Part shown: piece by piece, positions 35,883-63,450 of the stretch
Layout: the number at the start of each line of letters is the position of its first letter
How positions within the stretch are numbered: the first letter of the stretch is position 1
Assembly (NCBI GenBank): GCA_011032825.1
Contig: JAADJZ010000017.1
Coordinates: forward strand, 310,001 to 374,000
Direction: 5' to 3'
DNA length: 64,000 nt
Origin: Massariosphaeria phaeospora
Lineage: Eukaryota; Ascomycota; Dothideomycetes; Pleosporales
The notes under the pieces: generated by a model
What the model was told of the DNA's origin: nothing
Databases searched by the model: none
What the model saw: the letters and a program-made list of their open reading frames with translations, nothing else
Made by a program: the position numbers and the translations under genes

Positions 35883-37746
35883 ACGTACCTCACGAGTTCG
35901 TGCACTACATAAGTTCGTGCACTACTTTTGCCAAGCTCTCACCAAAACCACTCTATTCTGGCGCAAAACAGCTTACTTTAGCCCTGTATAGAGCAATATA
36001 ACACAAGATATTATTTAAAGTTTACTTTTACTGCTTGCTTACACGTACGCGCGTTATGCTTAGTCTAATTGCACTATTTACACTACTTTTAAGATAGTTC
36101 ACCTGCTTTAGCGCGCACCTGCGTTTTTAGCTTCTTTTTATTACTACGCGCCTCAAACTCCTTTAGAGCAGTTAGACGAGCTTTATTCTCAACTGTCAAA
36201 GTTCTTTTTGCTTGAACCTGCTTTCTTTTATGCGATTTACGTCGCGTAGCAGCTTTATTTGCTACTTTTAGCTTAGCTATCTTTCGTTGCGCTAACACTA
36301 GCTTGTGCGCGATAATAGCTGCTTTCTTTAAAACCTTTTTAAAGGCCTCTACTATAGACGTTGGTAAGCTATCTATATGCTTCTAAATTCTTGCTTTTAC
36401 AAGCGTCGATTGCGACTCTAGTTTAAAAGTATTGCTTAAGGTTTGCAACTGCTAGGGCTCGTTGTTGATAAGTAGTAGTAGTAATAAAGTACGCAACTAG
36501 ACGTCAAGAGCTGTTATAACCCGTTCTAGGTCAAATAAAACCAATCTAGCGCTTTGAAACTCTTTTTGGATATTACTCTTAGTAATTGCAGCATTATAGG
36601 CGCGTATAAAGCATAGTAGAAACTTAAGTTTTGTAATGTAAGTAATCTAGTTGCGCATAAAATCTTCGGCTTAGCGCTCGTACGCTTTCTTTAAAAGAGC
36701 AAAACAACTTACATTAAAAAGCTGTAAGAGGTGCGATAAGTGCGGAAGCATACAAATAGTAATAATCTTGTTCTCTTTGTAGTATTGCTAGAATGCGAGC
36801 GAGTTATAGCTTTTATAGCTGTTAATTGCGAGTAGTTAGTAGCTGCTAACTACTCTTTTCTTTGTATGCTTATTAAAGTGCTTTAACTACTGCAAGCTAA
36901 GCTTATTTGTTGTCCAGCTCTTTTTAGAAACTGCAATAACCTAGTTCTAAAGCAAATTCTTTTTCTTGTACTAAGCAAAGAAGTAGTAGCAGCCTTTAAA
37001 AATAATAAAAAGTAGAATAGCTTACCTTGTTGCGTTGATGCTTTAGATAACTGTTGTTTACTTTCTATTGCCTTGCTGTATTGCCTTTAGCTTTCCTCGT
37101 TTCTCTAAAGCTGTAACAACTGCTTTAGTTAATATTTAGCCTATTATAAAGCCTGTCTTGTCGAAGTTGTACGTGTTTTTATTTTAGATACTATACTTGG
37201 CTTTTATGTTAGCTACTAGGCGAAACTAGCTCTAGATAACTTTAGAATTCTCGCAAAGTGCTTTTTTGTAATTGTACTTGCAATTGAACTTTATTGTAAA
37301 CTCAAGGCAGTGCATGACCTACGTACTAGGCTAGTTTAAGCTAATCTAGCCTAGATTGCGCTTTGCGCGTAAGAAATTGGCTATATTAGCTACAGCTGCG
37401 AGCCTAGAGGGGAATCCGCGCGAAATAAAGTTAAGTATATGCTCAACAACTACGCTCTCTTTAGTCTTTGTTAGATTTCTTAATTTCAGCTAGCAATTTG
37501 CTTGTAGAGTTTGTTTTGCGCGTTAGCAGCTTAGTGTTGTATAAGTAACTTTGTAGATAGCTGCAGCGCGTTGCAAAAAAAGTGTTGCGTTTTGTTTAAA
37601 AGCCTAAAAAGCAGTTTGTATCTAACGCTTATTAGAAAGCTCTATTTAGTATTGTTGTTAAGGCATTACGTATAGAGGTTGAGTTGGTAGAAGCTTGGCA
37701 AAAGTAGTGCACGAACTTGTGTAGTGCACGAACTCGTAAAGTACGT
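35883..37746 (-). mobile_element. pogo-type TIR transposon with decayed transposase, 1864 bp
   Basis: Terminal repeats start ACGTAC and are flanked by TA duplications. Each end has two copies of GTTCGTGCACTAC 17 bp apart (35896 and 35913 on the left). A DDE_1-type transposase is readable on the minus strand in several pieces; the last ~70 codons (36089-36298, LAQRKIAKLKVANKAATRRK) are still open. Upstream text matches the fungal Tan1/Flipper-like pattern (NFDKTGF, LKHFNKHTKK). Many stop codons sit at Trp and Gln positions, as expected from RIP. Not functional. Confidence 0.85.
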
Positions 37747-37922
37747 TAAGTATAAGTTAAGTTATAAGTCGCACAAACTTTAGGTTAAAATTAAGTTAGA
37801 GTTAACAACTTAACCTAGCGTAGGTAGAAGTTAAGTTAGAGTAGTTAAAGCTTTAGGTTAAAAGTTAAGTTAGAGTTACCTAAATAGTTAAGAAACTATA
37901 ATAAATAAATGTAATAAATATA

Positions 37923-39783
37923 ACGTACTTTACGAGTAGTTAAGCTACACGAGTTTGCAAAATACTTTTGCTAAGCTTTTACCAACTCTACCTATGTACA
38001 CAATGCTTTAACAACAATACTAAATAGAACTTTCTAATAAACGTTAGATACAAACTGCTTTTTAAGCTTTTAAACAAAACGTAATACTTTTTTTGCAACG
38101 CGCTACAGCTATTTATAACGTTATTTAAACAACACTAAGCTATTAACGCGCTAAACAACTTTTACAAGCAAATTATAAGCCTAAATTAATAAATCTAACA
38201 AAAACTAAAGAAAGCGTAGTTGTTAAGTATATACTTAAGCTTATATCGCGCGGATTTTTTTTTAAGCTTGCAGCTGTAGCTAATATAGCTAATTCTTTAC
38301 GCGCAAAGCGCAATCTAGGCTAGGTTAGCTTAAACTAGCCTAGTACGTAGGTTATGCACTGCTTTGAGTTTACAATAAAGTTTAATTGCAAGTACAATTA
38401 CAAAAAAGTGCTTTGCAAGAATTTTAAAGTTATTTAGAGCTAGTTTCGCCTAGTAGCTAACATAAAAGCTAAGTATAGTATTTAAAATATTAATACGTAC
38501 AACTTTAACAAAACAAGCTTTATAATAAGCTAGATATTAACTAAAGCAGTTGTTATAGCTTTAGAAAAACAAGAATAGCCAAAGGCAATACAGCAAAGCA
38601 ATAGAAAGTAAACAATAGTTATCTAAAGCATCAACGCATTAGAGTAAGCTATTCTACTTTTTATTATTTTTAAAAGCTAATACTACTTCTTTGCCTAGTA
38701 TAAAAAAAAGTATCTACTTTAAAACTAGGTTATTGCAGTTTCTAAAAAAAGCTAGACAACAAATAAGCTTAAGCTGTAGTAGTTAAAGCACTTTAATAAG
38801 TATACAAAGAAAAAAGTAGTTAGCAGCTACTAACTACTCGCAATTAACGGCTATAAAAGCTATAACTCGCTTGCATTCTAGCAATACTACAAGAAAAACA
38901 AAATTATTACTATTTGCATGCTTTCGCACTTATTGCACTTTCTACAGCTTTTTAATGTAGGTTGTTTTGTTTCTTTAAAGAAAGCGTACAAGCGCTAAGC
39001 TAAAAATTTCATGCGCAACTAAATTACCTACATTACAAAACTTAAGTTTTTACTATACTTTATACGCGCTTATAATGCAGCAATTACTTTTAGTAATATT
39101 CAAAAAAAGTTTCAAAGCGCTAGATTGGTTTTATTTAACCTAAAACGAGTTATAATAGCTTTTAACGTTTGGCTACGTACTCTATTACTACTACTTTTTA
39201 GCAATAAGCTCTAGCAGTTGCAAACTCTAAGCAATACTTTTGAATTAAAGTTGCAATTAACGCTTGTAAAAGCAAGAATTTAGAAGTATATAAATAGCTT
39301 GCTAACTTCTATAATAAAAGCTTTTAAAAAAGTTTTAAAGAAAGTAGCTATTATCGCGCACAAGCTAGTGTTAGCGCAACGAAAAATAGCTAAGCTAAAA
39401 GTAGCAAATAAAGCTACTACGCAACGTAAATTGCATAAAAGAAAGCAGGTTTAAGTAGAAAAAACTTTAATAGTTAAGAATAAAGCTTGTTTAACTACTC
39501 TAAAGAAGTTTGAAGCGCGTAGTAATAAAAAAAAGCTAAAAACGCAAGTGCGCGCTAGAGTAAGTAAACTATTTTAAAAGTAGTGTAAATAGTGCAATTA
39601 AACTAAGCATAACGCGCGTACGTGTAAGCAAGTAGCAAAAGTAAACTCTAAATAATATCTTAGGTTAAATTGCTTTATATAAACCTAAAATAAGCTGTTT
39701 TGCGCTAGAATAGAGTAGTTTTGGTAGAAACTTAGTAAAAGTGTTTTGCAAACTCGTGTAGCTTAACTACTCGTAAAGTACGT
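37923..39783 (+). mobile_element. pogo-type TIR transposon, opposite orientation, ~1861 bp
   Basis: Same family as 35883-37746 but with the transposase on the plus strand and far more AT-rich. Ends begin ACGTACTTTACGAG and are flanked by TA. The paired 17-bp-spaced motifs (GTAGTTAAGCTAC, then GTTTGCAAAA.AC) are different from those of the first copy. It lies 176 bp from that copy inside the same MITE. No frame longer than ~60 codons survives. Confidence 0.8.
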
Positions 39784-40660
39784 TACATAAAAAACTTAAT
39801 ATTAATATAAATTGTAAATATTATGTAAAACCTAACTACAATTTTAAATTTTAACTACTTTAACTTAACTTTAACTTAAGCTGCTTAGTAACTAGCGCGA
39901 GTTAAAGCTAAAGTTAAGTTAAAGTCTAACGTAAGCTAACTTAACTTTAACTTAACTTTTACTTATTTACTAGCCTAGTTCTAAACACGTTTAGATTTTT
40001 AACTTATATTTTTAAAGACAGTTTCGTTTAATTAATAAGATTTTTTTTAAACTAGGTTAGAACGTGTTTAGAACGTGTTTAAAAAATCTGTCTTAAATTT
40101 TAAAAAAAGATTTAGAAGTTATTTTCAAATATATTAGAGTTAGTATAGTTAGAGTTAATATATATATATAACAACGTTAGAGTTAGAATAAAGTAAAGAA
40201 AAATAAACATATTAAAATAGAGTTAGAATAGAGTTAAAGTAAACACGTTTAGAATACGTTTAAAATATATTTAAAAAAAACTATAACGTAAAGCACTATT
40301 AAGTAACTTAAACTACTAAGTAACTTAAAATTGCTTAGCACAACTAACTTATTTTAAAGAAAATTAAATTAATTGCTATTAAATAAGAAACTTGCGTACA
40401 TCGTGCTAGTTTTAGATTTAAAAGCTTTTTTTGTATTTTTTTAGCAAGTTTAAGTATTGTGCTTTGTATTACTATAGTTTCTACAACGCTGTAAAGCTAG
40501 TTGTACTTTTTCTTAACTCTTTTTACTACGCGCTTTTTTTAATAGCTAAAGTGCTATAAACGCTTTAGCAGCTACTTGCGCTAATTTATTACTATACTCT
40601 ATTATGCTACTTGTTTAAATCTACTTTTGTTTTCGTAATTTTCTTTTTGTTGCTTTTTTA

Positions 40661-41084
40661 ATGTACTTTACGAGTTCGCTGCCTACACGGATTCGCCGCC
40701 TACCGAATTTTACTAAGAAAAATCAATAATCTAGAGCTTAATAACTCTTAACCTACTTAATAAAATTCTCTAAAAATTTTACTACTAAGCTGCATCTATA
40801 TAAACTTTTAGATTCCTAGATTACTAAGCTACAACTTTAGTATTTAGAAAGTTATTAAAGAAAAGCTTAAATTATCTGTGCGCTCTAAGCTATCTACTCT
40901 TCTAGACTAGCTAGAGCTTAGTAATCTTAAAACTAGAAAGTTTATATATACAGAAATAATATATTAAATTTTTAGAGAATTTTATTAAGTAGGTTAAAAG
41001 TTATTAAGCTCTAGATTATTGATTTTTCTTAGTAAAATTCGGTAGGCGGCGAACTCGTGTAGGCAGCGAACTCGTAAAGTACGT
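40661..41084. mobile_element. 424-bp pogo-derived MITE, copy 1
   Basis: Ends carry the ACGTACTTTACGAG terminus (first copy mutated to ATGTAC) and long inverted repeats of ~90 bp. The paired motifs are 17 bp apart, read most clearly at the right end; at the left end the second one is mutated (GTTCGCTGCCTAC and GATTCGCCGCCTAC). Flanked by TA. It has no coding capacity and is the reverse complement of the copy at 41980-42403, with the same length. Confidence 0.85.
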
Positions 41085-41703
41085 TAATAGTTTTCTTTAA
41101 AGCTAGAAATTCGATTGCGTATTAGCTTAACTTAATAAACTATCTAGTAAAACTCTTTAACAAGCTATTTAACTCTATTTTTTTTAAATAATAGAAAGAA
41201 ACTAAGCTTTAATTGCGATTTAAATTTAAGCGTATTGCTTAGAGTTTTTAACTACTACGGCGTTTTTAGTGCGAAAAGTAGTAGCAAAGTATACAGCTAT
41301 ACTTTAAAACAATTAAAAACTACCTGCGCGTTAACAAAAACTAGCTTTAAAGTTTTAAAAGCTTTTTTGTAGTTCTTTGTTGTAAACACTTTTAAAAACG
41401 CGGTTTTAAAAGCTAGTAGTAAGCTTTTTTTGTTAATATAGAAAACGCGCTAGCGAGCTAAGTTTTAAACGCGTTAAGAGTACTTTAGCTTTAGCAACGA
41501 AAAGCAAACTACATTTAAAAGCTAGAGAATATAAAATAAATAAACTAGTATGCAAAGCGTAAAATTTTTGTTTCTAAAGCAATAGTTTTTAAAATTCTAA
41601 AATTAGTAGCTTTTATAGCTGTTTAAAATAAGTAGCTAATAATTTTCTACCTAACGCGCTTTTATATACATATTAAAATGCTTTAACTATTTAAAACTAA
41701 AAG

Positions 41704-43097
41704 TAGGCTAGCGAATAGGTAGAAGTTAAGTTAAAGTTAAGTTGCTTTTTTTATAGCTCTAACTTAACTCTACTTATATACTTAATTTTTTAACGCTAGT
41801 ACAAGTTTATAGTTAGATTAAGTTGCATAAACTTTAGGTTAAAGTTAAGTTATTTTACATAAGCTCTAGGTTATAGTTAAGTTATAGTTAAGTTGTTATA
41901 TTTAGAGTTTACATATTGTATTTTAACATTAGCAAAGTATAAGTTGCTTAAGTTTATTATAAATTGTTATTATAGCGTAACGTACTTTACGAGTTCGCTG
42001 CCTACACGAGTTCGCCGCCTACCGAATTTTACTAAGAAAAATCAATAATCTAGAGCTTAATAACTTTTAACCTACTTAATAAAATTCTCTAAAAATTTAA
42101 TATATTATTTCTGTATATATAAACTTTCTAGTTTTAAGATTACTAAGCTCTAGCTAGTCTAGAAGAGTAGATAGCTTAGAGCGCACAGATAATTTAAGCT
42201 TTTCTTTAATAACTTTCTAAATACTAAAGTTGTAGCTTAGTAATCTAGGAATCTAAAAGTTTATATAGATGCAGCTTAGTAGTAAAATTTTTAGAGAATT
42301 TTATTAAGTAGGTTAAGAGTTATTAAGCTCTAGATTATTGATTTTCCTTAGTAAAATTCGGTAGGCGGCGAACCCGTGTAGGCAGCGAACTCGTAAAGTA
42401 CGTTAAAACAGCGTTTTTTAGTTTGCAAAAGCAAATAATAAAGAACTACTATGTAACGAAGTTAAGGACTTACTTAACTTTTAAGCGTAGTATGTAGATT
42501 TTACTTTTAGACCTATACTTACGCTTATACTTAGCTCGTTATCTAAGCTAATACTTAAGTTAATACCTAAGCTAATATTTAAGCTTATACTTAGCTTGTT
42601 ATCTAAGCTTACATCTAGGTCTATATCTAAGCTTTTACAATTAAAAATAACTTTGTTAAATAATAATTTAAAAAAAAAATTCGCTACTTCTGCTACAAAA
42701 GCGCGCTTGACTTTTACGCTACTATAATTAATATTTGTAATAATACAATTTTTTTTACTTTACTTGTGTTTTTGTACGTAAATAGTAGCTATAGTAATAG
42801 AACTTTGTAAATACTATTTGCGCGTTCTTAAATGTAATAACTAGCTGTAATAACTTTACAAACTTTAGCAACTTTCTAAGCTAACACATAACTCTATAAC
42901 TTAAATATAACTTTTAACTTAACTTTAACTTAAAGCTTTAATTACTTTAAATAAACTATAACTTAATACTTTAATAATTCTAACTTAATTTCTACCTACG
43001 CTAGAGTAACTATAACTTAACTTTAACTTAAAGTTTATGCAACTTATAACTTAACCTATACCTATTAATAAATACTTTTTACTTATTTGCTAGCGTA
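41704..43097 (-). mobile_element. hAT-like MITE, copy 3, interrupted
   Basis: Ends TAGGCTAGCGAATAGG... and ...TTATTTGCTAGCGTA, flanked by a perfect 8-bp duplication ACTAAAAG (41696-41703 and 43098-43105). It contains the 424-bp MITE at 41980-42403 plus roughly 570 bp of extra DNA of unknown origin (mainly 42404-42880). Its flanks read on as one decayed pogo-type transposase (TTAAAGTGCTTTAACTA-like text on the left, TTTTTAGAAACT on the right). It therefore inserted into an older transposon. Confidence 0.75.
41980..42403. mobile_element. 424-bp pogo-derived MITE, copy 2 (inverted)
   Basis: Begins ACGTACTTTACGAG, with paired motifs GTTCGCTGCCTAC and GTTCGCCGCCTAC 17 bp apart, flanked by TA. It is nearly the exact reverse complement of copy 1, and the differences I see are transitions. 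It is nested in the hAT-like MITE at 41704-43097. Confidence 0.85.
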
Positions 43098-43152
43098 ACT
43101 AAAAGCGTTGTTTGTCTAGCTGTTTTTAGAAACTAAAAGCTTTTAATTGCTA

Positions 43153-46100
43153 ACGTACTCTACGAGCGAGTTAGTTACGCAAGCAAGTTAGTTACTTTGC
43201 TAAAACTCTACCAAAACGTACTATTGCAAATAGTAAAGTTGTATTTTAACAATTTTGTATAGTACTACATAGTAGAGTATATTAATTAAAAGCTATTTTT
43301 TTAACTTATTTACATGTGCGCGAGTTGTGCTTAACTTTGTTGCAGCGCTTACAATGTCTTTAAGTTAGCTCGCTGCTTTTAGCGCGCGCGTTTTTTTTAT
43401 ACTTTTTTTTTATTACTGCGCGTTGTAAACTTCTTTAAAGTAGTTAAGCGCACGCTTTTTTAGTTGTAAAAGTTTCTTTAGCTTGTATACGCTTTTTTTT
43501 GCGCAATTTACAGCGCAAAGTAGCTTTGTTAGCTACCTAAAGCTCTTTAACTTAGTTGCTTATTAATACTAAAGAATACGCTATTATCTTTGCGCTTTTG
43601 GCAAGCTTTTTAACTGCATTAACTATGTAAGTAACCAAGCTATTACCGTGTTATCAAATTCTTTCTCAAATTAGCGTTAATTGCAACTTAAATTTTAGAG
43701 TATTGCTTAAAGTTTTAGACACTTAAAGCGCAATATTAGTAGTAAGTAGTATAAGCGTACAAAAGCAAATATTAAACTTTAATATTAACGTACTTTACGA
43801 GCTCGCCGGACACACGAGTTCGCTGAACACTTTTGCTAAGCTCCTACCAAAACTACTCTATTCTAGCGCAAAACAGCTTACTTTAGCTCTATATAGAGCA
43901 ATTTAACTTAAAATATTATTTAAAGTTTACTTTTGCTACTTGCTTACACGTACGTGCGTTATGCTTGGTTTAACTACACTATTTACACTACCTTTAAGAT
44001 AGTTTACCTGCTTTAGCGCGCACTTGCGTCTTTAGCTTTTTTTTATTACTACGCGCTCTAAACTTCTTTAGAGCAGTTAGACGAGCTCTATTTTTAACTA
44101 TCAAAGTTTTTTCTGCTTAAACCTGCTTTCTTTTATGCGATCTACGTTGCGTAGCAGCTTTATTTGCTGCTCGAAGCTTTGCGATTTTCTTTTGCGCTAA
44201 CACTAGCTTGTGCGCGATAATAGCTGCTTTCTTTAAAACCTTTTTAAAGGCCTCTACTATAGACGTCGGTAAGCTATTTATATGCTTCTAAATTCTTGCC
44301 TTTACAAGCGTTAATTGCGACTTTAGTTTAAAAGTATTGCTTAGAGTTTGCAACTGCTAAGGCTTGTTGTTAATAAATAGTAGTAGTAATAGAGTACGCA
44401 ACTAAACGTCAAAAGCTGTTATAACCTATTTTAGGTTAAATAGAACCAATCTAGCGCCTTAAAACTTTTCTTGGATATTACTAAAAGTAATTGCTGCATT
44501 ATAAGCGCGTATAAAGCATAGTAGAAACTTAAGTTTTGTAATGTAAGTAATCTAGTTGCGCATAAAATCTTCGGCTTAGCGCCTGTACGCTTTCTTTAAA
44601 AAAGCAAAACAACCTACATTAAAAAGCTGCAAAAAGTGCGATAAGTGCGAAAGCATACAAATAGTAATAATCTTATTCTTCTTGTAGTATTGCTGGAATG
44701 CGAGCGAGTTATAGCTCTTATAGCCGTTAATTGCGAGTAGTTAGTAGGCACTAACTACTTTTTTCTTTGTATGCTTATTAAAGTGCTTTAACTACTGCAA
44801 GCTAAGCTTATTTGTTGTCTAGCCGTTCTTAGAGACTGCAATAACCTAGTCCTAAAGCAGATTCTTCTTTTTGTACTAAGCAAAAAGGTAATAGCAGCTT
44901 TTAAAAATAATAAAAAGTAGAATAGCTTACTTTGTTGCGTTAATGCTTTGGATAACTGTTGTCTATTCTCTATTGCCTTGCTGTATTGCCTTTAGCCGTT
45001 CTCGTTTCTCTAAAGCTGTAACAACTGCTTTAGTTGTTATCTAGCCTATTATAAAGCCTGTTTTGTTAAAGTTGTACGTGTTTTTATCCTAGATGCCGTA
45101 CTTAGCTTTAATGTTAGCTACTAGGCTAAACTAGCTCTAGATAACCTCTAGGTCCTTGCAAAGCGCTTTTTTATAATTGTACTTGCAATTAAACTTTATT
45201 GTAAACTTAAAGCAGTGCTTAACCTACGTACTAGGCTAGTTTAAACTAACCTAGCCTAGATTGCGCTCTGCGCGCAAGGAATTGGCTATATTAGCTACAG
45301 CTGCAAGCCTAAAGAGAAATCCGCGCGTAATAAGCTCAAGTATATACTCAACAACTACGCTCTCCTTAGTTTTTGTTAGATTTATTAATTTAAGCTTGTA
45401 ATCTGCTTGTAAAAGCTGTTTAGCGCGTTGATTGCTTAGTGTTGCTTAAGAGACGTTATAGATAGCTGCAGCGCGTTGCAAAAAAAGTGTCGCGTTTTGT
45501 TTAAAAGCTTAAAGAGCAGTTTGTATCTAACGTTTATTAAAAAGCTCTATCTAGTGTTGTTGTAGAAGCATCGTGTACATAGGTAGAGTTAGTAGAAGCT
45601 TACTAAAAGTGTTCGGCGAACTCGTGTGTCTAGCGAGCTCGTAAAGTACGTTAGTTATTTTCTTTGTGTAAGCGTTAAAGTGCTTTAGCTACTCTAAACT
45701 AAGCTTATTTGTTGTCTAGCTATTTTTAGAAACTGCAATAACTTAGTTGCAAAGTAAGTTATTTTTCTTGTACTAAGCAAAGAAGCAGTTTTTGCTTTAA
45801 AAAATAACAAAAAGTAGAATTGCCTACTTAGTTGCGTTGATACTTTAAATTACTATAGTCTACTTGCAATTGCTTTGCTAAACGCTTTTTAGCTATTTTT
45901 AACGCTTAGAGCTTGTAACTACTACTTTAGTTAATATTATACCTATTATAAAGCTAAACTTGTTAAAGTTGTAAGTATTTTTGTTAAGAATACTATACTT
46001 AGCTTTTGTATTCTCTACAAGTTAAAACTAGCTTTGTATAACTTTAAAATTTTTGCAAAAAGCTTGCTTGTAGTTGTACTTGCAATTAAACTTAACTTAA

Positions 46101-46558
46101 AGCTTAAAGCAACATTTAACGAAAGTTGAAGCTTAGTTAACACTTACTAGTAGTTAGCTACGCTTTTTGCGTAGTAAATTAGCTATATTCTTTACAGCAG
46201 CAAGTTGTAGCGAAAATTCTTGCGCGTTAAGATTAAGTATATGCTAAACAATTACTTTTTCTTTGTTAAACAAAGATTTACTAAGTTAAGCGCGCAATTG
46301 CGTTAAAACTACTTTCTAGCGCGTTAATTGCTAAGTATTGTTTAAAAAACGTTGTAGATAGCTGCAACGCGTTGTTAAAAAAAAGTTGCATTTTGTTTAA
46401 TAGCCTAAAGCGCAAGCTGTATACGTGCTTTTTAAAATTCAAGTTGCTTATATTGTTGTTAAGCTATTGTTATTTTACTATTTGCAATAGTACGTTTTAG
46501 TAGAGTTTTAGCAAAGTAACTAACTCGCTTGTATAACTAACTCGCTTGTAAAGTACGT
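43153..46558 (-). mobile_element. older pogo-type element split by a younger one
   Basis: Ends begin ACGTAC with paired motifs GCGAGTTAGTTAC and GCAAGTTAGTTAC 17 bp apart at both termini, flanked by TA. After removing the inner element (43788-45651 plus TA), only about 1540 bp remain against ~1864 bp for the relatives. The central part of the transposase is missing, between the C-terminal text at left and the LKHFN-like text at right. The insertion point coincides with the deletion. Confidence 0.75.
43788..45651 (-). mobile_element. pogo-type TIR transposon nested in an older one, 1864 bp
   Basis: Exactly the same length as 35883-37746 and the same orientation of a decayed minus-strand transposase. 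TA duplications flank it. Terminal paired motifs are GCTCGCCGGACAC and GTTCGCTGAACAC, 17 bp apart, different from those of the first element. The transposase text is close to that of the first element but again full of stops. Confidence 0.85.
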
Positions 46559-47767
46559 TAGATATAAAGTTTTCTTTGTACTACGCTAAAATGTAAACGC
46601 GCTTTTTGTAAATAATAAAAAGTAGAATTGCGTACTTTGCAGCGTAGCTGCTTTAGATAACTATTACCTACTTCTAATTGCTTAGCTAGATAAAATTAAG
46701 TTGAGTACGTTTTTAAAAGCTTGTAACTACGCTAGCGAATAAGTAGAAAGTATTTATTAATAGGTATAAGTTAAGTTATAAGTTGCACAAACTTTAAGTT
46801 AAAGTTAAGTTAAAGTTAATCTAGCGTAAGTAGAAGTTAAGTTAGAGTAGTTAAAGCTTTAAGTTAAAAGTTAAGTTAAAGTTACCTAAATAGTTAAGAA
46901 ACTATAATAAATAAATGTAATAAATATACATAAAAAACTTTATATTAATATAAGTTGTAAATATTATGTACAACTTAACTACAACTTTAAGTTTTAACTA
47001 CTTTAACTTAACTTTAACCTAAGCTGCTTAGTAACTAGTGCGAATTAAAGCTAAAGTTAAGTTAGAGTTTAACGTAAGCTAACTTAACTCTAACTTAATT
47101 TTTACTTATTTACTAGCTTACTTGTAACAACTTTTATAAACTTAATTACGCTTATTTAAAAGCTAGTTTTGTTGAAGTTGTACACGTTATTTTTGTAAAT
47201 ACTATACTTAGCTTTAGTATTCTTAACAAGCTTAAACTACGCGCTAATTACTTTAGAATCTTTTTGTTGTATTCTCTGCTAGTTTTTTGCTTAATTGAAA
47301 GCTATTTTAAGCTCGCTTAAACGCGTTACAAATTTCTTAGCTTAGTTTTTGCCTACTAGCTTTCTACTCTACGTAGCTACTAGTTTATCTTTTATATTTT
47401 CTACTTTAAACAGCTAGAAAGCAAATTCTCGTAAATTAAAGTTGAGAATATATTAGATAATTGTTTGCTTTTTAGTCGTAGTAAGCTTTAAAAATGTAAG
47501 TTGTGTTTAAGCTTAAAATAAATTTTCTTTAGCGCGTTTAGAAAGAGTATAGTATTTAACGTTAAAAGCACTAGCAGCAGCTTAATAGCTTTAAAATTAG
47601 CTAGAATTATAAGCTTTAAAAGCAAACTAAAGTTTTTTTTTATATTAGTGTAATAACGCGTTAGTTAGTTAAAACATATCGCGTTGATAGAGAAAGTAGT
47701 AGTCTTGGCAAATTTTGTTGAGTTTACTAGTTTGTTGAGTTCGCTAGTGCTTTACGTTAGTACTTTA
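46559..47767 (-). mobile_element. remnant of a further pogo-type element hosting a MITE
   Basis: Left piece 46559-46719 and right piece 47129-47767 align with the middle and N-terminal parts of the transposase text of 35883-37746. The right piece ends in ACTTTACGTTA-like terminal sequence near 47760. The uninterrupted hAT-like MITE sits between them. The left end of the element is missing or overlaps the neighbouring element. Confidence 0.55.
46728..47120 (+). mobile_element. hAT-like MITE, copy 2, uninterrupted, 393 bp
   Basis: The cleanest copy of the family. Ends TACGCTAGCGAATAAGTAG and the reverse complement TAAGCTAGTAAATAAGTAAA pair as imperfect TIRs. The perfect 8-bp duplication CTTGTAAC flanks it (46720-46727 and 47121-47128). 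The interior corresponds to the pieces left around the two elements inserted in copy 1, so it serves as the empty-site reference. Confidence 0.8.
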
Positions 47768-47884
47768 CGTTATTAATTAAACAAAACTATTTTCAAAAAT
47801 ATAAGTTAAAAATCTAAACGTGTTTAGATAAGAATTACTTAATTAGGACTAGTTAAAAGTCGGCTGACTTAGGCGCTAATCTTA

Positions 47885-47916
47885 AGGTTATCTTTCGCTA
47901 CCTACGTACGGATGAC
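47885..47916 (-). repeat. right terminal inverted repeat of the AT-rich block
   Basis: Reverse complement begins GTCATCCG and continues ACGTAGGTAGCGA. The two differences from the left arm are A/T and G/A. Further inward the arms remain similar for about ten bases with C/T-type differences. No target duplication is obvious. Confidence 0.85.
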
Positions 47917-53477: not shown

Positions 53478-53525
53478 GTCATCATAGTGCGTGGGCGCTA
53501 GAAAGATCCGCGACGTTTGAGTTGT

Positions 53526-53822: not shown

Positions 53823-54652
53823 CTACAGCGTCCTGTCGGGCCGGGATGCGGTTGTGTCGATCAGACTGCGCGGGCGAGGGCGGAAGATCGTAGCGAGTTC
53901 AATGGAACGAATCGAGAAGACGCTTTTTGGCAAGTGGAGTCTCTAAGAGAAGAAGCCGAGAGAGTTGTGTGGCACATGGTGCTGCTGCGGACGTGGAGGG
54001 GGGAACTTTGTCGACAGAATCGTGGAACGCGGGAGTTTCCGCAGTCTGTTTGCCCATTCTACGCTAGTGCCGGCTTCGGCCTAGCGCGACTTCCTCTCTC
54101 GACGGCGACGAGCACGACAACAATTTCGACGGCAGTCCGGCCAGAAAGCCAGCGACTCCGCCGCACCATCGTCGACACCGCCGTCTTTGTGCGATTTCAA
54201 CCCAGTATGAAACCCCCTCTCGGTTCCAGAGCCATTAACAGAAACTCCATCCTCTTTGTCTAGCACAAACAGCCAATCAGCGCACACCAAGACCGAACTC
54301 TACATCAATGAAAAAATCGAAGTACGCGCCCGACGGCAGTGCGTTGTGGCGTAATTATAGGCCAAACTATAATAGAGCGAGGTACTATCAGAAGATCCGA
54401 GCCCCGTCAGCGACATCATAGTGGGGGCAATCCTTGGGCTTCACAGGGTTGTTGTCACTAATGTTGCCGCCCGATTGGGGAAAGCGTCTTTCGGCTGACT
54501 TACCTCTGCTCTCACCAGCCATTTCCAACATCACCTCACACCGTTTCGCACCTGCGCACATTTATCAACAACCATACTCATTCCTTCATAGATTTCCTGA
54601 CACTCCACAACCTGAAGAAAGCCACCCTCCTTACTTAAACTACGGCGACGCC
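53823..54652. promoter_or_regulatory. divergent intergenic region, 830 bp
   Basis: Lies upstream of the small membrane protein (minus) and NUP42 (plus). The open frames are not conserved text. The last ~150 bp before NUP42 are pyrimidine-rich. Confidence 0.45.
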
Positions 54653-56707
54653 ATGGCCGTCTGCACCTTCTTCCAACGCGGTTACTGCAAGTTTGGAGGT
54701 GAGTAACCATGCAAACCTTCATCAATACCCGCAAAAACTAACGTGTCGAAGACCGTTGCAATAACGAGCATCCCAATGGCCAAACCCGTGCTCCTGCGGG
54801 CAACTACGGAGGGTCAAACACGAATCGCTTTGGCGCCTTCAATGGCGGCGGAGATCGTTATCGGCCAGGGCAACAGGCGGGAAGCACATTCGCAGGTGAG
54901 TGCTAATTTTGTTCTCTTTTTCCTATCCTACGTCTCCACATTTTGGACCATGAAAGAACGACGAGGTATCCATTGGGGCCTCGGGAAAAATCCTGCAGCC
55001 ATGCGGGCCCGTGCCTCCCATATGCGCAGTCGTACTTAATGGGGTCACTAGATCTCGTCTCCTGTAATAGCCTCGTTGAACTAATTGAGCTAACTTTAAT
55101 AGGCGGCCGTGATACTCGAACACCACGCTTTCATCTGACCAAGGATGACATCAAAGCCGACCTCACAGACCAACGTCCAATATATCCCTTGTCTTGCTTT
55201 GGACCTGGCCGAGATGCACCCCGTCAGTTAATCGAAGGGCGCGTTGAAGTCAGCCCCGAGGAACTCCGGGTACGATACTACTCTCAAGGTGCCACAGGCA
55301 ATGAAGCTGTAGCAGTAAGTCTTTTGATCTCTATGCTGGCCTCTGCTAACCATAATACAGCAAAATGAGGAGCAGGAGTTGCACACGATGATGCAGCAAC
55401 AGGTCGAAGCTATCCTCAAAGATTTGAACGGAGCTATGAAGTATGTTGAAGACGGTGCCGACATTCACCCAAATAGGGTCGACATCGCCCAGGGCAAAGC
55501 TTTTCCAAACACCCCAGCAGATGCGCCATCCAACCAACCTAATTCGGATCCCTTCCCCAAGGCCTCTTCGAACTCGTTCGGTAATACGAACCAGTCCAGC
55601 GCATCTGCATTCGGACAGCCATCTACTTCAGCATTCGGCCAACCCCGCCCAACTCCTTTCGGTCAACCCTCCGGCTTGGGTCAAACAGCATCGCCTTTTG
55701 GACAACCTTCTAATCCAGGCCAAACCACGTCAGCCTTTGGACAACCCGCAAATCCAGGTCAGTCTACTTCGGCTTTCGGGCAGCCCTCAAACCCAGGTCA
55801 GACTACTTCAGCCTTTGGGCAGACAACCATTCTGGGCGGTGGTGGAGCATTTGGAAAGCCAACTATGCCCGGTTCGAACTCAAACCCCTTCGGCCAACCT
55901 GCTCAATTGGGCGGGTCTGCGTTCGGACAACCTTCGGCCGTGGGATCTGCGTTTGGCAAACCCTCACTACCAGGAACGGGGTCCGCTTTCGGACAGACAG
56001 GCGCAATGGGTCAACAGTCGGCGTTTGGACAACCACCAGCATCTACGGCGGCACCAGCTTTCGGACAGCCCTCGGCACCAGTAGCTACTCCTGCTTTTGG
56101 ACAGTCCTCGACGCCTAGCCAAACATCCGCATTTGGACAACCTAGTGCACCTGGAAGTAACCCGTTTGGTAAGCCGGCATTTGGTCAATCTGGTTTGGGT
56201 CAACCTTCTCAGCCTGGTGCTGCTGTCCCTCCATTCGCTCAGCGCGCCACACAACCTCAGGCAAGTGTTGTATCAGCATCGGTCAACTCTAACCCCTTTG
56301 GAACTCCTGCGCCTCTTCAACAAACCAATACTTTTGGTCAAACAGGCTTTGGCGTAGCGCGGAACCAAATGCCCTCATCTCAGTCTGTGCAGCCTTCCGT
56401 CCCGCAACCCGCCGCCGCTACAACAGGCTCACCGTTTGCTGCTTCAGCCCAGACAAGCACCCCGTCTATGCAACCCACTCAGCCGACTGCTTCGCCTGCA
56501 GCTGCCCATGGCAACGGCGGCAAACCAATTGACGAGAGGGATAGATTCAAAGAAGGTAATTCCGCAGATTACGAGGGTGAGCAAGGCCGCATTCTAGAGG
56601 AGATCTACAGGCGTGTTGGCCGACTTGGTCGATTCGATGAAAATGAGGATATTCCGCTCATCCCGCCGAAGTGCGAGTGGATCGTGCCTGTAGAGCTACC
56701 TAGGTAG
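54653..56707 (+). CDS. NUP42: CCCH zinc-finger FG nucleoporin Nup42, 582 aa
   Basis: Exons 54653-54698, 54752-54895, 55103-55314 and 55361-56707. The third junction spans a 207-bp intron that could hide a small exon; other introns are 46-53 bp. The N-terminal finger reads CTFFQRGYCKFGDRCNNEH, with Cys4, Cys12, Cys18 and His22. A conserved segment follows (LTKDDIKADL, RPIYPLSCFGPGRDAPRQLI, VSPEELRVRYYS) with a short helical part ending LKDLNGAMKYVED. Then come more than 25 FG dipeptides, mostly as SAFGQP or PFGQP repeats. The C-terminal helix (RILEEIYRRVGRLGRFDEN) fits the Gle1-binding end of the family. Nup42 sits on the cytoplasmic face of the nuclear pore and helps Gle1/Dbp5 in mRNA export. 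Confidence 0.93.
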
Positions 56708-57110
56708 ACGACTGGATGTCACAATCTGGGGTGCTACAACGAGAGATCAGGGGCCTTGCCACGATGAGATTTGTACAGTAAGCCTATACGGCAGGATATG
56801 TTGAGTTCCAGATCCCGGTTGATCGTAGGATCTGAGAGATCAAAGGCGAGCTCAAAATACTAGATTAATGAATTTCGTGCCGCATGGCATGTTCATGTGA
56901 ACAATACATCTTGACCATGTTGTGATCTTGGTATGATTGCGTCTCGTCTTGCAATTAAGATCAGCCAGTGGTAGAAGCAAAGCAGCATTGAATCTACGCT
57001 TCACTCTAGCCTTTGCAACAGGTCGAACTTCGTTTTCGGTAGGAAATGGCACGATATTCTCGGTGACTCGTGAGGTTTTGATCGATACAAGAGCGCTATC
57101 CTATTAGTTA
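56708..57110. other. 3' flank of NUP42 up to the first Fot1-like element
   Basis: 403 bp without a supported gene. It ends with the TA target duplicate of the next element. Confidence 0.5.
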
Positions 57111-59243
57111 CCGTGTCCGTGCGCGCAACGCCCGGAGTCGCGCAACGCCCGATCACCAAAACAGCACCCACACTTCAACGCGTAACAACTCAACGGCCAT
57201 GGCACCTATTGATGATGCGCTTGCAGCAATCAAAGCGCTAGACTCAGGAAAGAAACTTGTGTATCAAAAAATTGCTGATCAATTTGGTGTCGATCGCTCA
57301 ACTTTGGCGCGGAGACACAAGGCTGTTCAGGCACCCCGAGAAACCAAAGACTCCAACTAGCAGAAGCTTACCCAACAACAGGAGGAGGAGCTTGTAAAGT
57401 ATATAGAAGAGCTTACTGCTCGTCATATACCTCCTACAAGAGAGATAATCGCCAATTTTGCGTCAGCAGTCGCCCAGGAGCTAGTGAGCGAAAGCTAGGT
57501 TACCCGCTTTATCAACAAGTACTCTATCCATCTTATCTCTCAATACTCAACGGGGATAGACGCCAATCGCCACAACGCCGACTCCTACACAAAGTATGAG
57601 TTATATTTCAACCTACTACAACGCAAGATTGCTGAGTATAAGGTTAACGCTGAGCACACGTACAATATGGATGAAAAAGGCTTTATAATAGGAGTTACCT
57701 CAAGAACAAAGCATGTGTTCAGCCGACGTATGTGGGAGAAAAAGGAAGTCAAAGCATCACTCTAAGATGGCAATTGTGCCTAGTTGACGCTTATAGCGTG
57801 TGTGTGCGGCGATGGATTAGCTCTGCCGCTAGGCCTCCTCTACGAGTCCGCCAACAACACTATCCAATCAAGCTAGGTAGAGGAAATCAAGCTAGAGATA
57901 CACTCTGTGCTTGTTTCCTCGTCACCTTCAGGGTGGATCAACAATGAGCTAGGCCTAGCTTAGCTTCAACAGGTGTTTGATCGCTTCACCAAGCAGAAAG
58001 CTCGAAGAAAGTACCGCCTATTGATCGTTGACGGCTACGGCTCTCATGTAACAATGGACTTTATCAACTACTGCGATTAGAACAAGATACTTCTAGCTAT
58101 TCTTCCTCCTCATTCAACCCACACGCTGCAGCTGCTTGATAAGGTAATGTTCAAGCCTCTGTCAACTGCGTACTTAAAGGAGCTTACAACACACCTTCAC
58201 AACGGCTAGGAGCTGTTAGTAATTAAGAAGAGCAACTTCTTTTACCTCTTCTAGAAGGCCTGGACAAGCACGTTTACTTAGGAGCTGATACTTAGGTCCT
58301 TTGAGGCAACGGGTATATCACCCCTTTAGCCTAACGTTATCCTCTAACGCTTTGCTAAGGATACTCTTGAGGACTCTGATAGCAGCACAAGCTCTTCTTT
58401 AGTCTACTCTAGCAAGGATTGGCTTAAAATAGAGACTCTGTTACGCAAAGTCGCCAAAGATAAGAGCAGTAAAGAGCTAAGGAAGGTCAGCCGCTCGCTC
58501 TACTACATCTCAATTCAAAACTCTCTCCTCCACCACGAGATAGTAGGCCTTAAAGAAGTTCTTAAGACTTAGAAAAAGCACAAGAAGAAGAGCAAAGCTC
58601 TTGAGTTCAAGCCTCGCAAGGAGTATTATAGTAGGGCTAAGTTCTACTCTCCTAGTAGAGTAGAGAAGGCACGCTCTGATAAGAGGACTAAACAACAGAA
58701 CTAGAGGGCAGAGGAACTTAGAAAAGCAGAGATGGCGAAGCTCAGACACGCTAATAAGCTGTACAATAAGAAGATTGCTTAGGAGAAGCGTAAGCAGCGC
58801 GCGAGGGAGAAAGCAAAGCGAGACCAAGTTAAAGCTAAGAAAGCTGAGGAAGCAGCTGAGCGCAAGGCTCAAAGAGAGCGTAATAAGCAAGCTTTTGACG
58901 CTGAAAAAGCTGTACAATTGCTTCAAAGAGGCAAGCGCAAGGCCTCACAGTCTGCTGCACCAAGAAAAAAGCAAAATCGTAGTGCAGTGGCTGCGCGGCG
59001 TGGTGTTGTTGCTGCAGAGCCTCCTGCCGCACCTCGCACCCACACTACCCGCAGCGGCAGAACAGCAACTCTATATAATTAATTTGTATGAGAGAATATC
59101 ATCGCATAGGTCTTTAGTGCACTCTACCAAAATATATCGCTATAGTAGCTATTGTATGTGGCTCTACAGCTTCAATTTTGTATGTTGCTGGAGAGTGATT
59201 ATCGGGCGTTGCGCGACTCCGGGCGTTGCGCGCACGGACACGG
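57111..59243 (+). mobile_element. Fot1/pogo-type element A, 2133 bp
   Basis: Perfect inverted termini of at least 43 bp beginning CCGTGTCCGTGCGC, flanked by TA (57109-57110 and 59244-59245). Each end has two copies of GCGCAACGCCCG spaced 17 bp (57123-57134 and 57140-57151). The only coding content is the transposase frame at 57199-59082. Base composition is near normal, so it is younger or less mutated than elements in the AT-rich block. Confidence 0.93.
57199..59082 (+). pseudogene. transposase of element A (DDE_1, CENP-B-type HTH), broken by nonsense codons
   Basis: A single 628-codon frame without indels but with more than ten internal TAG or TAA codons. It starts MAPIDDALAAIKALDSGKK, with an HTH_psq/CENP-B-type N-terminus (YQKIADQFGVDRSTLARRH). 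VTRFINKYSIHLISQY, HTYNMDEKGFIIG with the first catalytic Asp and LLIVDGYGSHVTMDFI with the second Asp follow, then LPPHSTHTLQLLD. The C-terminus is a long Lys/Arg/Glu-rich helical tail. Comparison with elements B and C places each stop at a Trp or Gln codon, consistent with RIP at CpA. A functional product is not expected. Confidence 0.9.
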
Positions 59244-59252
59244 TACGTACTA

Positions 59253-61363
59253 ACGTGTCTGTGCGCGTGCCGAGCCACTTCGCGTGCCGAGCCACTTAAT
59301 ACCATCACGAATTAATTAGAATTGAGGCTGTAGAGCCGCCTATAATTAATATTATCGCGAGATATTTTTCAGGAGTACTATATTGATACTCGCGATTAAA
59401 TTGTACTACTTATATTTATCTGGAAGCTTGACGCTGCGGCCGCGACGCGTTAGGATAGCTGGGGTAGCAGATACGCCCTCTGAGGCCTCCGCAGCATCTC
59501 TAGTATCAACGCTGCGTTTGTAACGCTTTTTGCTCTGTAGAGATAGCTGCGGAGCTTTTCTCTTACCCTTTTGTGAAAATTGTAGAGCTTTTGTAGCGTC
59601 GCGAGCTTCCTTCTGGCGAGCGCGCTTTGCTGCCTTTTCTGCTATCTTCTTCTTCCTAGCTACCTTAGCTGCCTTCCGCGCTATACGCTTTTCCTCTGCA
59701 ATTTTCTCCTTGTATAGCTTAGCTGCCTTCTTCAGCTCTGCCGTCTCTGCTTTTTGAAGCTGCTGCTCCTTCTTCTCTTGCTCTCTAACAGATTGACGAA
59801 CACGTGCCTCCCTTATCTTCCTTGGTAACCAGAAAACAGCTCCACCATGATATTCCTAGCGCTGTTGGAGATCTAGAGCTTTGCCCTTTTTCTTGCGCTT
59901 CTCCTTGATAGATAGCGCCTGCTTAATTCCATCTATCTCATGCTTAAGTAGCTCATTCTGAACAGATAGGTGGTGGAGCGATCGGCGAAGTTTCTGTGTA
60001 TCTTGACTACCTTAATCCTTCACTGCTAATCGTACAAGCCTATCTATCTTTTTTCAGTTATAATCGCTAAGCCCTAATGAGGAGCTATTGCCTAATTCTT
60101 TATCCTGTGCGAACCTATCAAGGATAGGCTTAGAATTAGGTAGTGATATGCCTGTAGCTCTAAAAGAGCTAAGAATAGTTGATTCCTTGAAGGAAGCCTT
60201 CTACGCATTCTAGAATAGAGGAAAGAAGTCGCCCTTAGTGATAGAAGCCAGGCCCTGGCTTCTATGAAGGTATTCTAATAGCTCTGCTAAGTAGGCCGTT
60301 GATAGAGGCTTGAACATTGCTACATCAAGTAGCTGAAGCGTATGAGTCGAATGAGAAAGTAGAATAGCAAGGAGAATCTTATTCTAATCACAGTAGTTGA
60401 TAAAATCCATAGTAATATAGGATCCGTGGCTATCTAGGGTTAAGAGTCGATAGGATCGTCGGGTTTTTTCTTTTGTACAGCGATCAAACACCTGCTCAAG
60501 CTAAGCAAGTCCAATATCGTTGTTTGTCCAGCCAGAGAGTGATGAGGTGATGAATACTAGGTGTTCTCCTGCCTGGATATCGTCTACCTAGCTTGATTGA
60601 ATGCCCTTGTTAGCAGCCTCATAGATAAGGCTTGGAGGCAGAGCAGTTCCATCAGCGCATATACATGCTAGGAGTGTAATCCATGCGCGGCTTCCATCCT
60701 GGAGCGATGCTCTAACTTCCTTCTTCTCCCACATTCGTTGGCTGAATATCCTCTTTGATCTGCCCACAATACCAATCATGAAGCCTTTCTCATCCATATT
60801 GTACGTATGACGAGGATCTATCTGATATTGATCGATCTTGCTATGTAGGAGCTGAAAATAGAGGCGATATTTATCCCCTGAATTAGCTTTGTGGCGATTG
60901 CTGTCCATGCCAACTGTCCATTGTGATATAAGATGAATGCTGTGCCGGTTGATAAAGCGCGTAACCCAGCTCTTACTGACTAGCTCCTGGGCTATCGTTG
61001 ATGCGAAATTTCGTATTATCTCTCTTGTAGGAGGTATATGTCTCTCTGATAATCCTTTGATATACTGTACAAGCTCCTGCTCTTGCTGTGGGTTGAGTTT
61101 CTGTTGATTGATCTTCTTGGCTTTATTGGAGGCCTGAACGCGCTTGTGCCTTCGGGATAACGTAGTTCTGTTGACATTATAGGTGGCAGCGATTTTTCTA
61201 TACGAGAATGATTCTCCTGGATCCAAAGATTCGATCGCATCGATCGCATCGTCGATTGCTCCCATGTTGGTGGAGTTAAGACGCGTCAAAGTTAGGGGGA
61301 TTTCGGTGTTTTGGTGATGGGTGGCTCGGCACGCGAAGTGGCTCGGCACGCGCACAGACACGT
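59253..61363 (-). mobile_element. Fot1/pogo-type element B, 2111 bp
   Basis: Perfect 43-bp inverted ends beginning ACGTGTCTGTG, then two tandem copies of the 17-mer CGCGTGCCGAGCCACTT. TA flanks at 59251-59252 and 61364-61365. Only 7 bp of unrelated DNA plus TA separate it from element A, and its right TA is shared with element C. Confidence 0.93.
59406..61265 (-). pseudogene. transposase of element B, N-terminal 220 codons open, then nonsense codons
   Basis: A 620-codon frame, no indels. The ATG at 61265 gives MGAIDDAIDAIESLDPGESF, then FSYRKIAATYNVNRTTLSRR, SWVTRFINRHSIHLISQW and HTYNMDEKGFMIGIVGRSKR. The frame is open from the start through IYEAANKGIQSS (to 60588) and then meets TAG where the relatives have Trp. 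Later stops again sit at Trp/Gln positions. It is the best preserved N-terminal half of the three and includes the first catalytic Asp. Confidence 0.9.
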
Positions 61364-61365
61364 TA

Positions 61366-63450
61366 CCGTGTCCGTGCGCGTGATGCGCCACCCTCATCAA
61401 AAACAGCTCAAGCATGAATGAAGCTATAGAGCCACCTACAATCAATATTATCACGAGATATTTAGGTGGAGTATTATATTGATACTTGCGATCAATTTGT
61501 ACTACTTGTATTTATCTGGAAGCTTGACGCTGCGGCCGCGACGCGTCAGGATAGCTTGGGCAGCAGATACGCTCTCTGAGGCCTCCGCAGCATCTCTAGC
61601 ATTAACGCTACGTTTGTAACGCTTTCTGCTCTGTAGAGATAGCTGCGCAGCTTTTCTCTTACTCTTCTGTAAAGATTGTAGAGCTTTTGTAGCGTCGCGA
61701 GCCTCCTTCTGGCGAGCCCGCTCTGCTGCCTTTTCTGCCTTCTCTTTCTCCTTCGCTACCTTAGCTGCCTCTCGCGCTACACGCTTTTCCTCTGCAATTT
61801 TCTCCTTGTACAGCTTAGCTGCCTTCCTTAGCTCTGCTGTCTCTGCTTTTTGAAGTTGCTGCTTCTGATTTTCCTGCTCCTTGATTGACTGACGAACACG
61901 TGCCTCCCTTACTTTCCTTGGTAACTAGAAAATAGCTCCACCATGATACTCCTAGCGCTGTTGAAAGTCTAGAGCTTTGCTCTTCTTCTTACGCTTCTTC
62001 TTAATAGATAGAGCCTGCTTAAGCCCATCCATCTTATGCTTGAGTAGGTCATTTTGGACAGATAGGTGGTAGAGCGATTGACGAAGCTTCTGTGTATTCT
62101 TACTGCTCTAATTACTTACTACAGAGCGTACAAGCCTATCCATCTTTTTCCAATCATGATCGCTAAGTAATGATAAGGAGTTTTCTCTTGATTCTTGAGC
62201 TTTGGTGAATCTATTGAGAATAGAATTAGGATTAGGAAGTGATATGCCTGTTGCTCTAAAAGAGCTAAGAATTATTGGTTCCTTAAAGGAGGTCTCCTAC
62301 GCCTTCTAGAATAGTAGGAAGAAGTCGCCTTTAGTGATAGAAAAGAGGCCTTGGCTTGTTTGAAGGTAGTTTGATAGTTCTACTGAGTAGGCAGTTGATA
62401 GAGGCTTGAACATCGCTACATCGAGTGGCTGAAGCGTATGAGTCGAATGAGGAGGTAGGATAGCAAGAAGAATCTTGTTCTGGTCACAGTAGTCGATAAA
62501 ATCCATAGTGATATAGGATCCGTGGCCATCTAGGATTAGAAGTCGATAGGATCGTCGGGTCTTCTGCCTTGTACAGCGATCAAACACCTGCTCAAGCTAG
62601 GCAAGTCCAATATCGTTGTTCGTCCAGCCAGAGGGTGATGAGGTGATAAAGACTGGGTGTTCTCCTGCCTAGATATCGTCTACCTAGCTTGATTGAATGC
62701 CCTTGTTGGCAGCTTCATAGATAAGGCTTGGAGGCAGAGCAGATCCATCAGCGCATATACATGCTAGGAGCGTGATCTATGCGCGATTACCATCCTGGAG
62801 TGATGCTCTAACCTCCTTATTCTCCCACATTTGCCTGCTGAATATTCTTTTTGATCTGCCAACAATACCAATTAGGAAGCCTTTCTCATCCATATTGTAG
62901 ATATGACGAGGATCTATCTGATATTGCTCGAGCTTGCTGTGTAGTAGATGAAAATAGAGGCGATATTTATCCTCTGAGTCAGCTTTGTGGCGATTGCTGT
63001 CCATCCCAGCTGTCCATTGTAAGATAAAGTGATCGCTCTGTCGGTTGATGAAGCTGGTAACCTAGCTCTCGCTAACTGGCTCCTTGGCTATTGTAGAGGC
63101 GAAATTCTGTATCATCTTTCTTGTAGGTGGCAAGTGTCTCTCTGTGAGTCCTTTAATATATCGTATAAGCTCCTGCTCTTGTTGTGGGCTGAGTTTCTGC
63201 TGTTCAAAGTTCTTCGCCTCTAGGGCGCGCGTTATCCCTCGATGCCTTCGGGTCAACGTAGATCGTACAACACCATGCTTAGCAGCAATCTTTCTATATG
63301 AGAAATCTTCGCCAGGTCCTAAGGATTCTATCTCTGCGAGTGCGTCGTCTATTGGAGCCATATTGGTAGAATTATCGCGTGTTGAACTTCTGTTGTTTTT
63401 GATGAGGGTGGCGCATCACGCGAACCGGCGCATCACGCGCACGGACACGG
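61366..63450 (-). mobile_element. Fot1/pogo-type element C, 2085 bp, asymmetric ends
   Basis: Outer termini CCGTGTCCGTG at both ends, TA at 61364-61365 and 63451-63452. The right end carries two copies of CGCGTGATGCGCC spaced 17 bp; the left end has only one, so one 17-bp unit has been lost. The ACCCTCATCAAAAACA sequence follows at both ends. Confidence 0.92.
61502..63361 (-). pseudogene. transposase of element C, broken by nonsense codons
   Basis: A 620-codon frame without indels. The ATG at 63361 gives MAPIDDALAEIESLGPGEDF. Open pieces include 63062-63361 (helix-turn-helix part), 62777-63004 (YNMDEKGFLIGIVGRSKRIF) and 62306-62587 (LLILDGHGSYITMDFIDYCD, then LPPHSTHTLQPLDVAMF). Stops are at Trp/Gln positions of the relatives. 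The ending RRGRSVKLPDKYK-like text matches element B. Confidence 0.9.

Follow-up and report, generated by a model that had tools for sequence, protein, structure and literature searches.

Trem elements of the fungus Paracoccidioides, like Aft1 and Tan1, carry two 17-bp direct repeats within terminal inverted repeats (TIRs) of 42-49 bp. Excerpts of their description suggest these repeats as recognition sites of the helix-turn-helix (HTH)/CENPB region, and state that the DNA-binding domains differ and may be tied to the TIRs (PMC2836289). Here we describe related transposons in a 64,000-nucleotide stretch of Massariosphaeria phaeospora DNA (the window), that is C9:310001-374000, where "Cn:position" refers to a numbered contig of the 51-contig, 42.08-Mb genome. 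In the same excerpts, the likeness to Trem, Aft1 and Tan1 extends to the TA target, a length of 1.85-1.89 kb and, in some cases, HTH_psq, CENPB and DDE domains (PMC2836289). As those excerpts already describe such 17-bp pairs and suggest what may read them, the paired motif as such is not new (PMC2836289). What is new is the system that surrounds it: many types on a shared transposase core, the history of the first HTH (HTH1), a link between a residue and a base, and re-addressed bodies of miniature inverted-repeat transposable elements (MITEs). The excerpts on Trem contain neither many addresses on one core, nor exchange of an HTH1 block, a residue-base link, re-addressed MITEs or a range from 1 to at least 8 units (PMC2836289). 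Our searches of the openly licensed literature turned up no report that describes, for these elements, either an exchange of HTH1 blocks or a link between a residue and a base.

We read the elements as two large pogo/Fot1 cut-and-paste families, with a fragment of a third, in which matched addresses (HTH1 together with the sites at both ends) can be exchanged and 17 bp corresponds to the pitch of the DNA-binding heads. We give this reading a probability of about 0.72. It is built on an exact 17-bp pitch, matched ends, a separate history of HTH1, a link between transposase residue 44 and unit base 7, and MITE bodies with different unit sets, all of which were observed directly.

Units at a 17-bp pitch behind matched ends

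Nine elements lie at 35.9-63.5 kb of the window, six of the AT family, damaged by repeat-induced point mutation (RIP), and three of the GC family (A, B and C). Our end search recovered 18 ends, 12 AT-type and 6 GC-type, with an outer sequence of TA-ACGTACTTTAC or near in the AT family and TA-CCGTGTCCGTGC or near in the GC family. A first-pass annotation of this stretch had described eight elements, all with paired, element-specific motifs 17 bp apart. The pairing stands for 17 of the 18 ends, at least 9 of 12 bases being alike in 14 of them, but the elements number nine, and C bears a single unit on its left (61366) and two on its right. All the motifs that it quoted are present, and opposite ends of every element carry one type, a few base differences aside. 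Each repeat spans 17 bp, of which a portion of about 12 bp is type-specific. The partner of the motif at 37923, which had been called very divergent, is indeed so: the AT3 element bears a pair of unlike units that is identical at both ends (6 and 5 of 12 bases match), and similar pairs of unlike units are also found in a C1 copy. At one end of the AT2 element (43788) the units match at 8/12.

The same organization extends across the genome. The AT outer end occurs 586 times with at most one mismatch (17 for a reversed-pattern control) and the GC outer end 327 times with at most two (control 41). Chance does not explain the spacing. When distinct ends of fetched sequence were shifted against themselves and the best match of 9 or more identical bases out of 12 was taken, 48 of the 57 AT ends peaked at 17 bp, as did 48 of the 62 GC ends (a tie with 9 in one case). 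Nowhere did a different shift win outright, and the interior control yielded 0/57 and 1/62, respectively. The exceptions (9 AT and 14 GC ends) are single-unit ends, unlike-unit pairs or damaged ends. The spacing claimed for the window held in other copies too, since among the matches listed 99 of 99 exact AT1/AT8 unit pairs (13-42 bp allowed) and 39 of 39 exact T3/T14 pairs (11-40 bp allowed) were at 17 bp, with controls at 0. The ends display the fungal pogo trait of two 17-bp direct repeats per TIR, and also TA-flanked TIRs: with TA plus outer sequence as the search pattern, opposite ends pair at near-constant lengths.

The number of units per end ranges from 1 to at least 8. At C8:3900-4060 (the AT4 end at C8:3922), eight or more perfect tandem 17-bp units follow one outer end, an array that is a minisatellite grown out of a transposon end. 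A T17-like end at C50:982811-982839 is severed after its first unit by a T3 element, which went into a TA of the linker. We also observed T3/T14-like unit pairs in reversed order, about 1.8 kb apart, at C16:29110/30915, C34:634432/636237, and C48:701952/703757 and 1543898/1545703, which may possibly belong to another element family using that box in reverse.

At least 19 GC-family types coexist in this one genome, with 18 different first units (those of T12 and T15 are identical); HTH1 was known first for T1-T16 and T18, and T17 and T19 were added later. Their units have a common skeleton, the positions of which are conserved across types. Left and right first units agree, with no more than 2 mismatches, in 44 of the 46 GC elements for which both ends were examined (49 elements in all), and T17 bears the same units at both ends. 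As for the two disagreements, one element retains only the second-unit spelling of its own type and the other has a foreign end fragment directly beside it. We rejected an outer fragment at C45:1502208 as a candidate element of mixed address; it adjoins a complete T4 element. RIP was also rejected as the source of the type differences, because transversions separate the types and both ends match.

The history of HTH1 and its link to the units

Read through their stops, the transposases of A, B and C match DDE_1 (E 1e-19 to 3e-27) and HTH_Tnp_Tc5 (E 1e-7 to 8e-12) above cut-offs. HTH_Tnp_Tc5, the CENPB-type domain expected of pogo/Fot1 elements beside DDE_1, was present in 12 of 12 N-termini. 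The psq HTH is weak, with 19.7 bits in B against a cut-off of 20.4, no listing for A and C, and HTH_psq at E up to 0.01 in 4 of 12 N-termini. These domains support the pogo/Fot1 kinship proposed by the first-pass annotation for the predicted transposases of the window. In a profile search of the PDB the DNA-binding domain of CENP-B (1HLV) matched best, with colinearity over residues 11-108, and it came first again after re-alignment; a single-sequence search of the PDB returned no useful match. A genome search with the B transposase gave 71 scored copies, and in 10 of these, from types T2, T10 and T14, the frame is free of internal stops.

Comparison of 17 type representatives by region revealed that HTH1 (codons 1-54) often differs strongly between transposases that are otherwise nearly the same. 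T1 and T3 are 49% identical over residues 1-45, 95% in the second HTH (HTH2), 96% over residues 113-192, and 89% in both the DDE region and the C-terminus; for T2 and T4 the values are 53% in HTH1, 95% in HTH2, 100% over residues 113-192, 93% in the DDE region and 77% in the C-terminus. The transition is sharp, as nucleotide identity between T1 and T3 per 12 codons runs 72, 67, 53, 39 and 72%, then 97, 97 and 94%, rising after codon 60. Silent sites follow the same step: fourfold-site differences in codons 1-54 versus 57-250 were 4/8 vs 6/72, 8/13 vs 15/68, 8/13 vs 10/74, 9/12 vs 16/70 and 7/10 vs 17/70 in five pairs (Fisher p 0.0005-0.007). Furthermore, in approximately unbiased tests the codon blocks 1-54, 57-250 and 251-468 reject each other's trees in all six exchanges (p <=3.2e-4), which implies that the core itself is mosaic too. 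The divergence of HTH1 at silent sites and its different tree imply that address blocks were exchanged whole, or were kept while the core was overwritten. The history that these sequences suggest is one of block exchange, beyond fast point change alone, in which addresses look old and the core recombined. This departs from the earlier proposal that specificity has diversified quickly. Public relatives, with 102 of 120 listed proteins aligned and pairs that are not independent, present the same picture: where core identity is 0.80 or more, HTH1 identity is below 0.60 in 91 of 227 pairs among the listed proteins. The public proteins P0055 and P0066 have a core identity of 0.93 and an HTH1 identity of 0.30, and conversely T16 and P0117 reach 0.95 in HTH1 and 0.64 in the core.

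To relate transposase to unit, we scanned 191 variable protein columns (residues 1-400) against 7 variable unit positions over 17 types. Residue 44 and base 7 form the top pair, with a score of 0.886 (the next is 0.54) that none of 300 shuffles reached. When T11 is left out the match is perfect over 16 types, a score equalled by 3 of 1500 shuffles. The 9 types with Gln44 have C at base 7 and the 9 types with Thr44 have T, whereas T11, with Met44, has one unit of each. On the core tree, where T11 was counted among the Thr types, residue and base each undergo five or more changes, and every independent pair agrees (4 pairs if only supported branches are used, 5 if all are). The rule was fixed before types T17 and T19 were added; both have T at base 7, and both proved to have Thr44. 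A further T16 copy, L111, is damaged by a stop at residue 44 and was left out of this prediction count. In a structure model residue 44 lies in a long third helix (33-54), within a block whose mean predicted local distance difference test (pLDDT) score is 55. Thr beside the methyl group of thymine and Gln on a C-G pair would be chemically reasonable contacts. That the units are paired transposase sites, as had been proposed, is hence well supported, since they sit where pogo-type binding sites have been reported and one of their bases is linked to residue 44. The expected covariation of unit type with the N-terminal HTH is borne out almost one-to-one for residue 44 and base 7, but overall similarity is only weakly correlated.

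Addresses also differ among MITEs. An AT5 MITE at C1:262864 and a MITE on C37 that bears four AT6 units are identical at 315 of 334 inner bases, with 4 transversions, and all four of their units differ. The two MITEs of the window match the inner body of the C1 copy at 326 and 325 of 334 bases, and bodies about 80% identical bear AT7 units (C2:820709) and AT2-like units (C1:2780863). It follows that these non-coding bodies have been carried under at least two, and probably four, addresses.

We propose that each 17-bp unit would most likely land one transposase DNA-binding head, 17 bp being the footprint pitch of tandem heads. HTH1 would mainly read the roughly 12 type-specific bp of the unit, and HTH2 the shared part, the outer 11-12 bp being common to the types together with HTH2 and the DDE core. 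Gene conversion or gap repair between elements may reshuffle transposase cores and MITE bodies, and conversion between inverted ends may keep the four units alike. Address and reader presumably stay matched because mismatched products would be immobile, and siblings would then not mobilize each other. The first-pass annotation supposed, in addition, that each MITE may depend on one matching transposase. A bolder formulation, in which the HTH cassette (codons 1-54) and its boxes recombine against a shared core and so create insulated strains, a partial code (residue 44 sets base 7) and MITEs that switch drivers, is one that we put forward tentatively, at somewhat under even odds.

A number of results weigh against the reading of exchangeable, matched addresses. 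Foldseek ranks 1HLV only 19th. Of the 106 GC ends examined, 19 bear a single unit, and T3 copies of 2080 bp, reduced to one unit on either side, occupy four places, so a single unit per end may suffice for movement and pairs would not be strictly needed. T7/T16, T7/T12 and T8/T18 have HTH1 identities of 80-82% and no step. T12 and T15 share an identical first unit, and only 22 of 45 of their HTH1 residues are identical. In Mantel tests the distance between whole units showed a weak correlation with that between HTH1 sequences (r 0.145-0.206, p 0.04-0.09) and none with core distance. A second candidate rule, an acidic residue 32 with A at unit base 5, held in 6 of 6 types and was then broken by T17; applied to the AT family, the residue-44 rule gave mixed signals, obscured by RIP.

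Part of this list bears on the possibility that residue 44 and base 7 are linked by coincidence, through common descent, HTH1 and the ends having travelled together while reading is spread over many contacts. The weak Mantel correlations, the few shuffles that equal the score and the poor carry-over to the AT family agree with it, but it has to face five or more co-changes on the core tree without exception, a next column far below the top pair, and two new types that obeyed the rule. We judge such a coincidence unlikely, yet serious enough to be kept in mind. Alternatively, HTH1 and the units may have diversified by fast point change, selected for escape from siblings, on a conserved transposase. 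N-terminal conservation is lowest in HTH1 and the linker, and in the recognition helix positions 32, 34 and 37 vary while 31, 33, 35, 36 and 38 hardly do. The absence of a step in pairs such as T7/T16 means that point change must contribute too. As a full explanation it is already disfavoured, and we consider it improbable, for it leaves aside the five pairs diverged at silent HTH1 sites, the sharp edge near codons 54-60, the incompatible trees and the near-identical HTH1 on distant cores (T16/P0117). Finally, a by-product of slippage duplications and inverted-end conversion, with no head-site role and incidental HTH1 differences, would account for the variable unit number, for losses of exactly one 17-bp unit and for matching ends, but is very improbable given the 17-bp pitch that the third family shares with all types whose two units are alike, the conserved skeleton, the agreement of base 7 with residue 44 in new types, and the HTH/CENPB recognition suggested in excerpts of the Trem account (PMC2836289).

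Elements and transposases of the window

Counting the TA at each end, the AT elements measured are 1865-1868 bp long. The AT1 element (GTTCGTGCACTAC) spans 35881-37748 on the minus strand, where its transposase remains also lie, with units at 35894-35910, 35911-35927, 37719-37735 and 37702-37718. It is followed on the plus strand by the AT3 element (37921-39785; units 37934-37950, 37951-37967, 39756-39772 and 39739-39755), whose first unit is GTAGTTAAGCTAC and second GTTTGCAAAA[CT]AC. Two 428-bp MITEs of type AT5 (GTTCGCYGCCTAC) lie at 40659-41086 (units 40672-40688, 40689-40705, 41057-41073 and 41040-41056) and 41978-42405 (units 41991-42007, 42008-42024, 42376-42392 and 42359-42375). The AT4 element (GCGAGTTAGTTAC; 43151-46560, minus strand; units 43164-43180, 43181-43197, 46531-46547 and 46514-46530) is split by the AT2 element nested in it (GCTCGCCGGACAC / GTTCGCYGAACAC; 43786-45653, minus strand; units 43799-43815, 43816-43832, 45624-45640 and 45607-45623). 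An end of the third family, with outer sequence TA-ACGTAAAGC (ACGT-type), is found at 47715-47759 on the minus strand and has its own 17-bp direct pair, ACTAGCGAACTCAACAA then ACTAGTAAACTCAACAA. The window has AT-rich, RIP-like stretches at 36-48 kb, with 25-36% GC.

The three GC-family elements nearly abut (59245-59251; 61364-61365), the TA between B and C being common to both. Element A, of type T9 (GCGCAACGCCCG), spans 57109-59245 on the plus strand, with units at 57123-57139, 57140-57156, 59215-59231 and 59198-59214. Its transposase (57199-59079, plus strand) contains 13 TAG and 2 TAA; HTH1 occupies 57199-57360 and the Gln codon of residue 44 is 57328-57330. Element B, of type T1 (GCGTGCCGAGCC), spans 59251-61365 on the minus strand, with units at 59265-59281, 59282-59298, 61335-61351 and 61318-61334. 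The transposase of B (59409-61265, minus strand) is interrupted by 6 TAG, 1 TAA and 1 TGA, with HTH1 at 61104-61265 and a Gln codon for residue 44 at 61134-61136. Element C, of type T14 (GCGTGATGCGCC), spans 61364-63452 on the minus strand; its left unit is at 61378-61389 and its two right units at 63422-63438 and 63405-63421. There the transposase (61505-63361, minus strand) has 10 TAG inside, HTH1 at 63200-63361 and a Thr codon for residue 44 at 63230-63232. In-frame TAG is common to A, B and C at residues 225, 254 and 351, and A and C also have it at residue 99, a position occupied by Trp in B and in several further copies. TAG at Trp codons would fit a RIP-type G-to-A change.

Named relatives of the transposase come from Pyrenophora, Parastagonospora and Alternaria and, with the AT-rich, RIP-like stretches, point to a pleosporalean ascomycete. 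Those of T2 are about 60% identical when full-length, and 83-88% when partial (Lentithecium, Paraphaeosphaeria). A scan of viral contigs found no relative. Positions 54653-56707 of the window hold split frames starting MAVCTFFQRGYCKFG and then many FGQ-type repeats, which, from a reading of the sequence, we take to resemble a CCCH-finger FG nucleoporin.

Comparison with known systems

How a transposase stays matched to evolving ends, and how siblings keep from mobilizing one another, has usually been studied across distant elements. A single genome here provides about 19 natural pairs of head and site, several of them on nearly the same core, which together with the stop-free copies makes specificity testable while much else stays the same. 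Should the code prove true, it would be a source of orthogonal transposase heads and would allow MITEs to be assigned to their drivers from sequence. For Drosophila pogo, the title of Wang et al. (1999) reportedly states that the HTH region recognises a 12-bp sequence within the TIRs; that case differs in concerning one element only.

Closer in kind are the Mariner_SS families of Sclerotinia sclerotiorum, which in excerpts of their description share ACGT ends, the combination of HTH_psq, HTH_Tnp_Tc5 and DDE, TIRs of 36-70 bp and the presence of several families per genome (PMC4188875). Their authors propose, in the same excerpts, that combinations of end and transposase give some specificity (PMC4188875). 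The Sclerotinia families differ in that, as far as these excerpts go, no direct repeats were found in their TIRs (PMC4188875). Molly (1862 bp) and Pixie (1845 bp) of Parastagonospora nodorum appear in part of a published account as RIP-damaged Tc1/mariner elements close in size to the AT elements (PMC3017866). Their likeness to the AT elements is one of size and kind only.

The likeness to CENP-B (1HLV) concerns a putative two-HTH DNA-binding region and the 17-bp box, and many units here start with TTCG. The CENP-B box consensus is nTTCGnnnnAnnCGGGn, from which the units depart: when TTCG is aligned, none of the GC unit types T1-T19 has CGGG at unit bases 9-12. CENP-B differs, moreover, in that the boxes described here are in tandem at both ends of an element and the recognised sequence varies. 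By this comparison, the units would work like a CENP-B box but are not members of that class.

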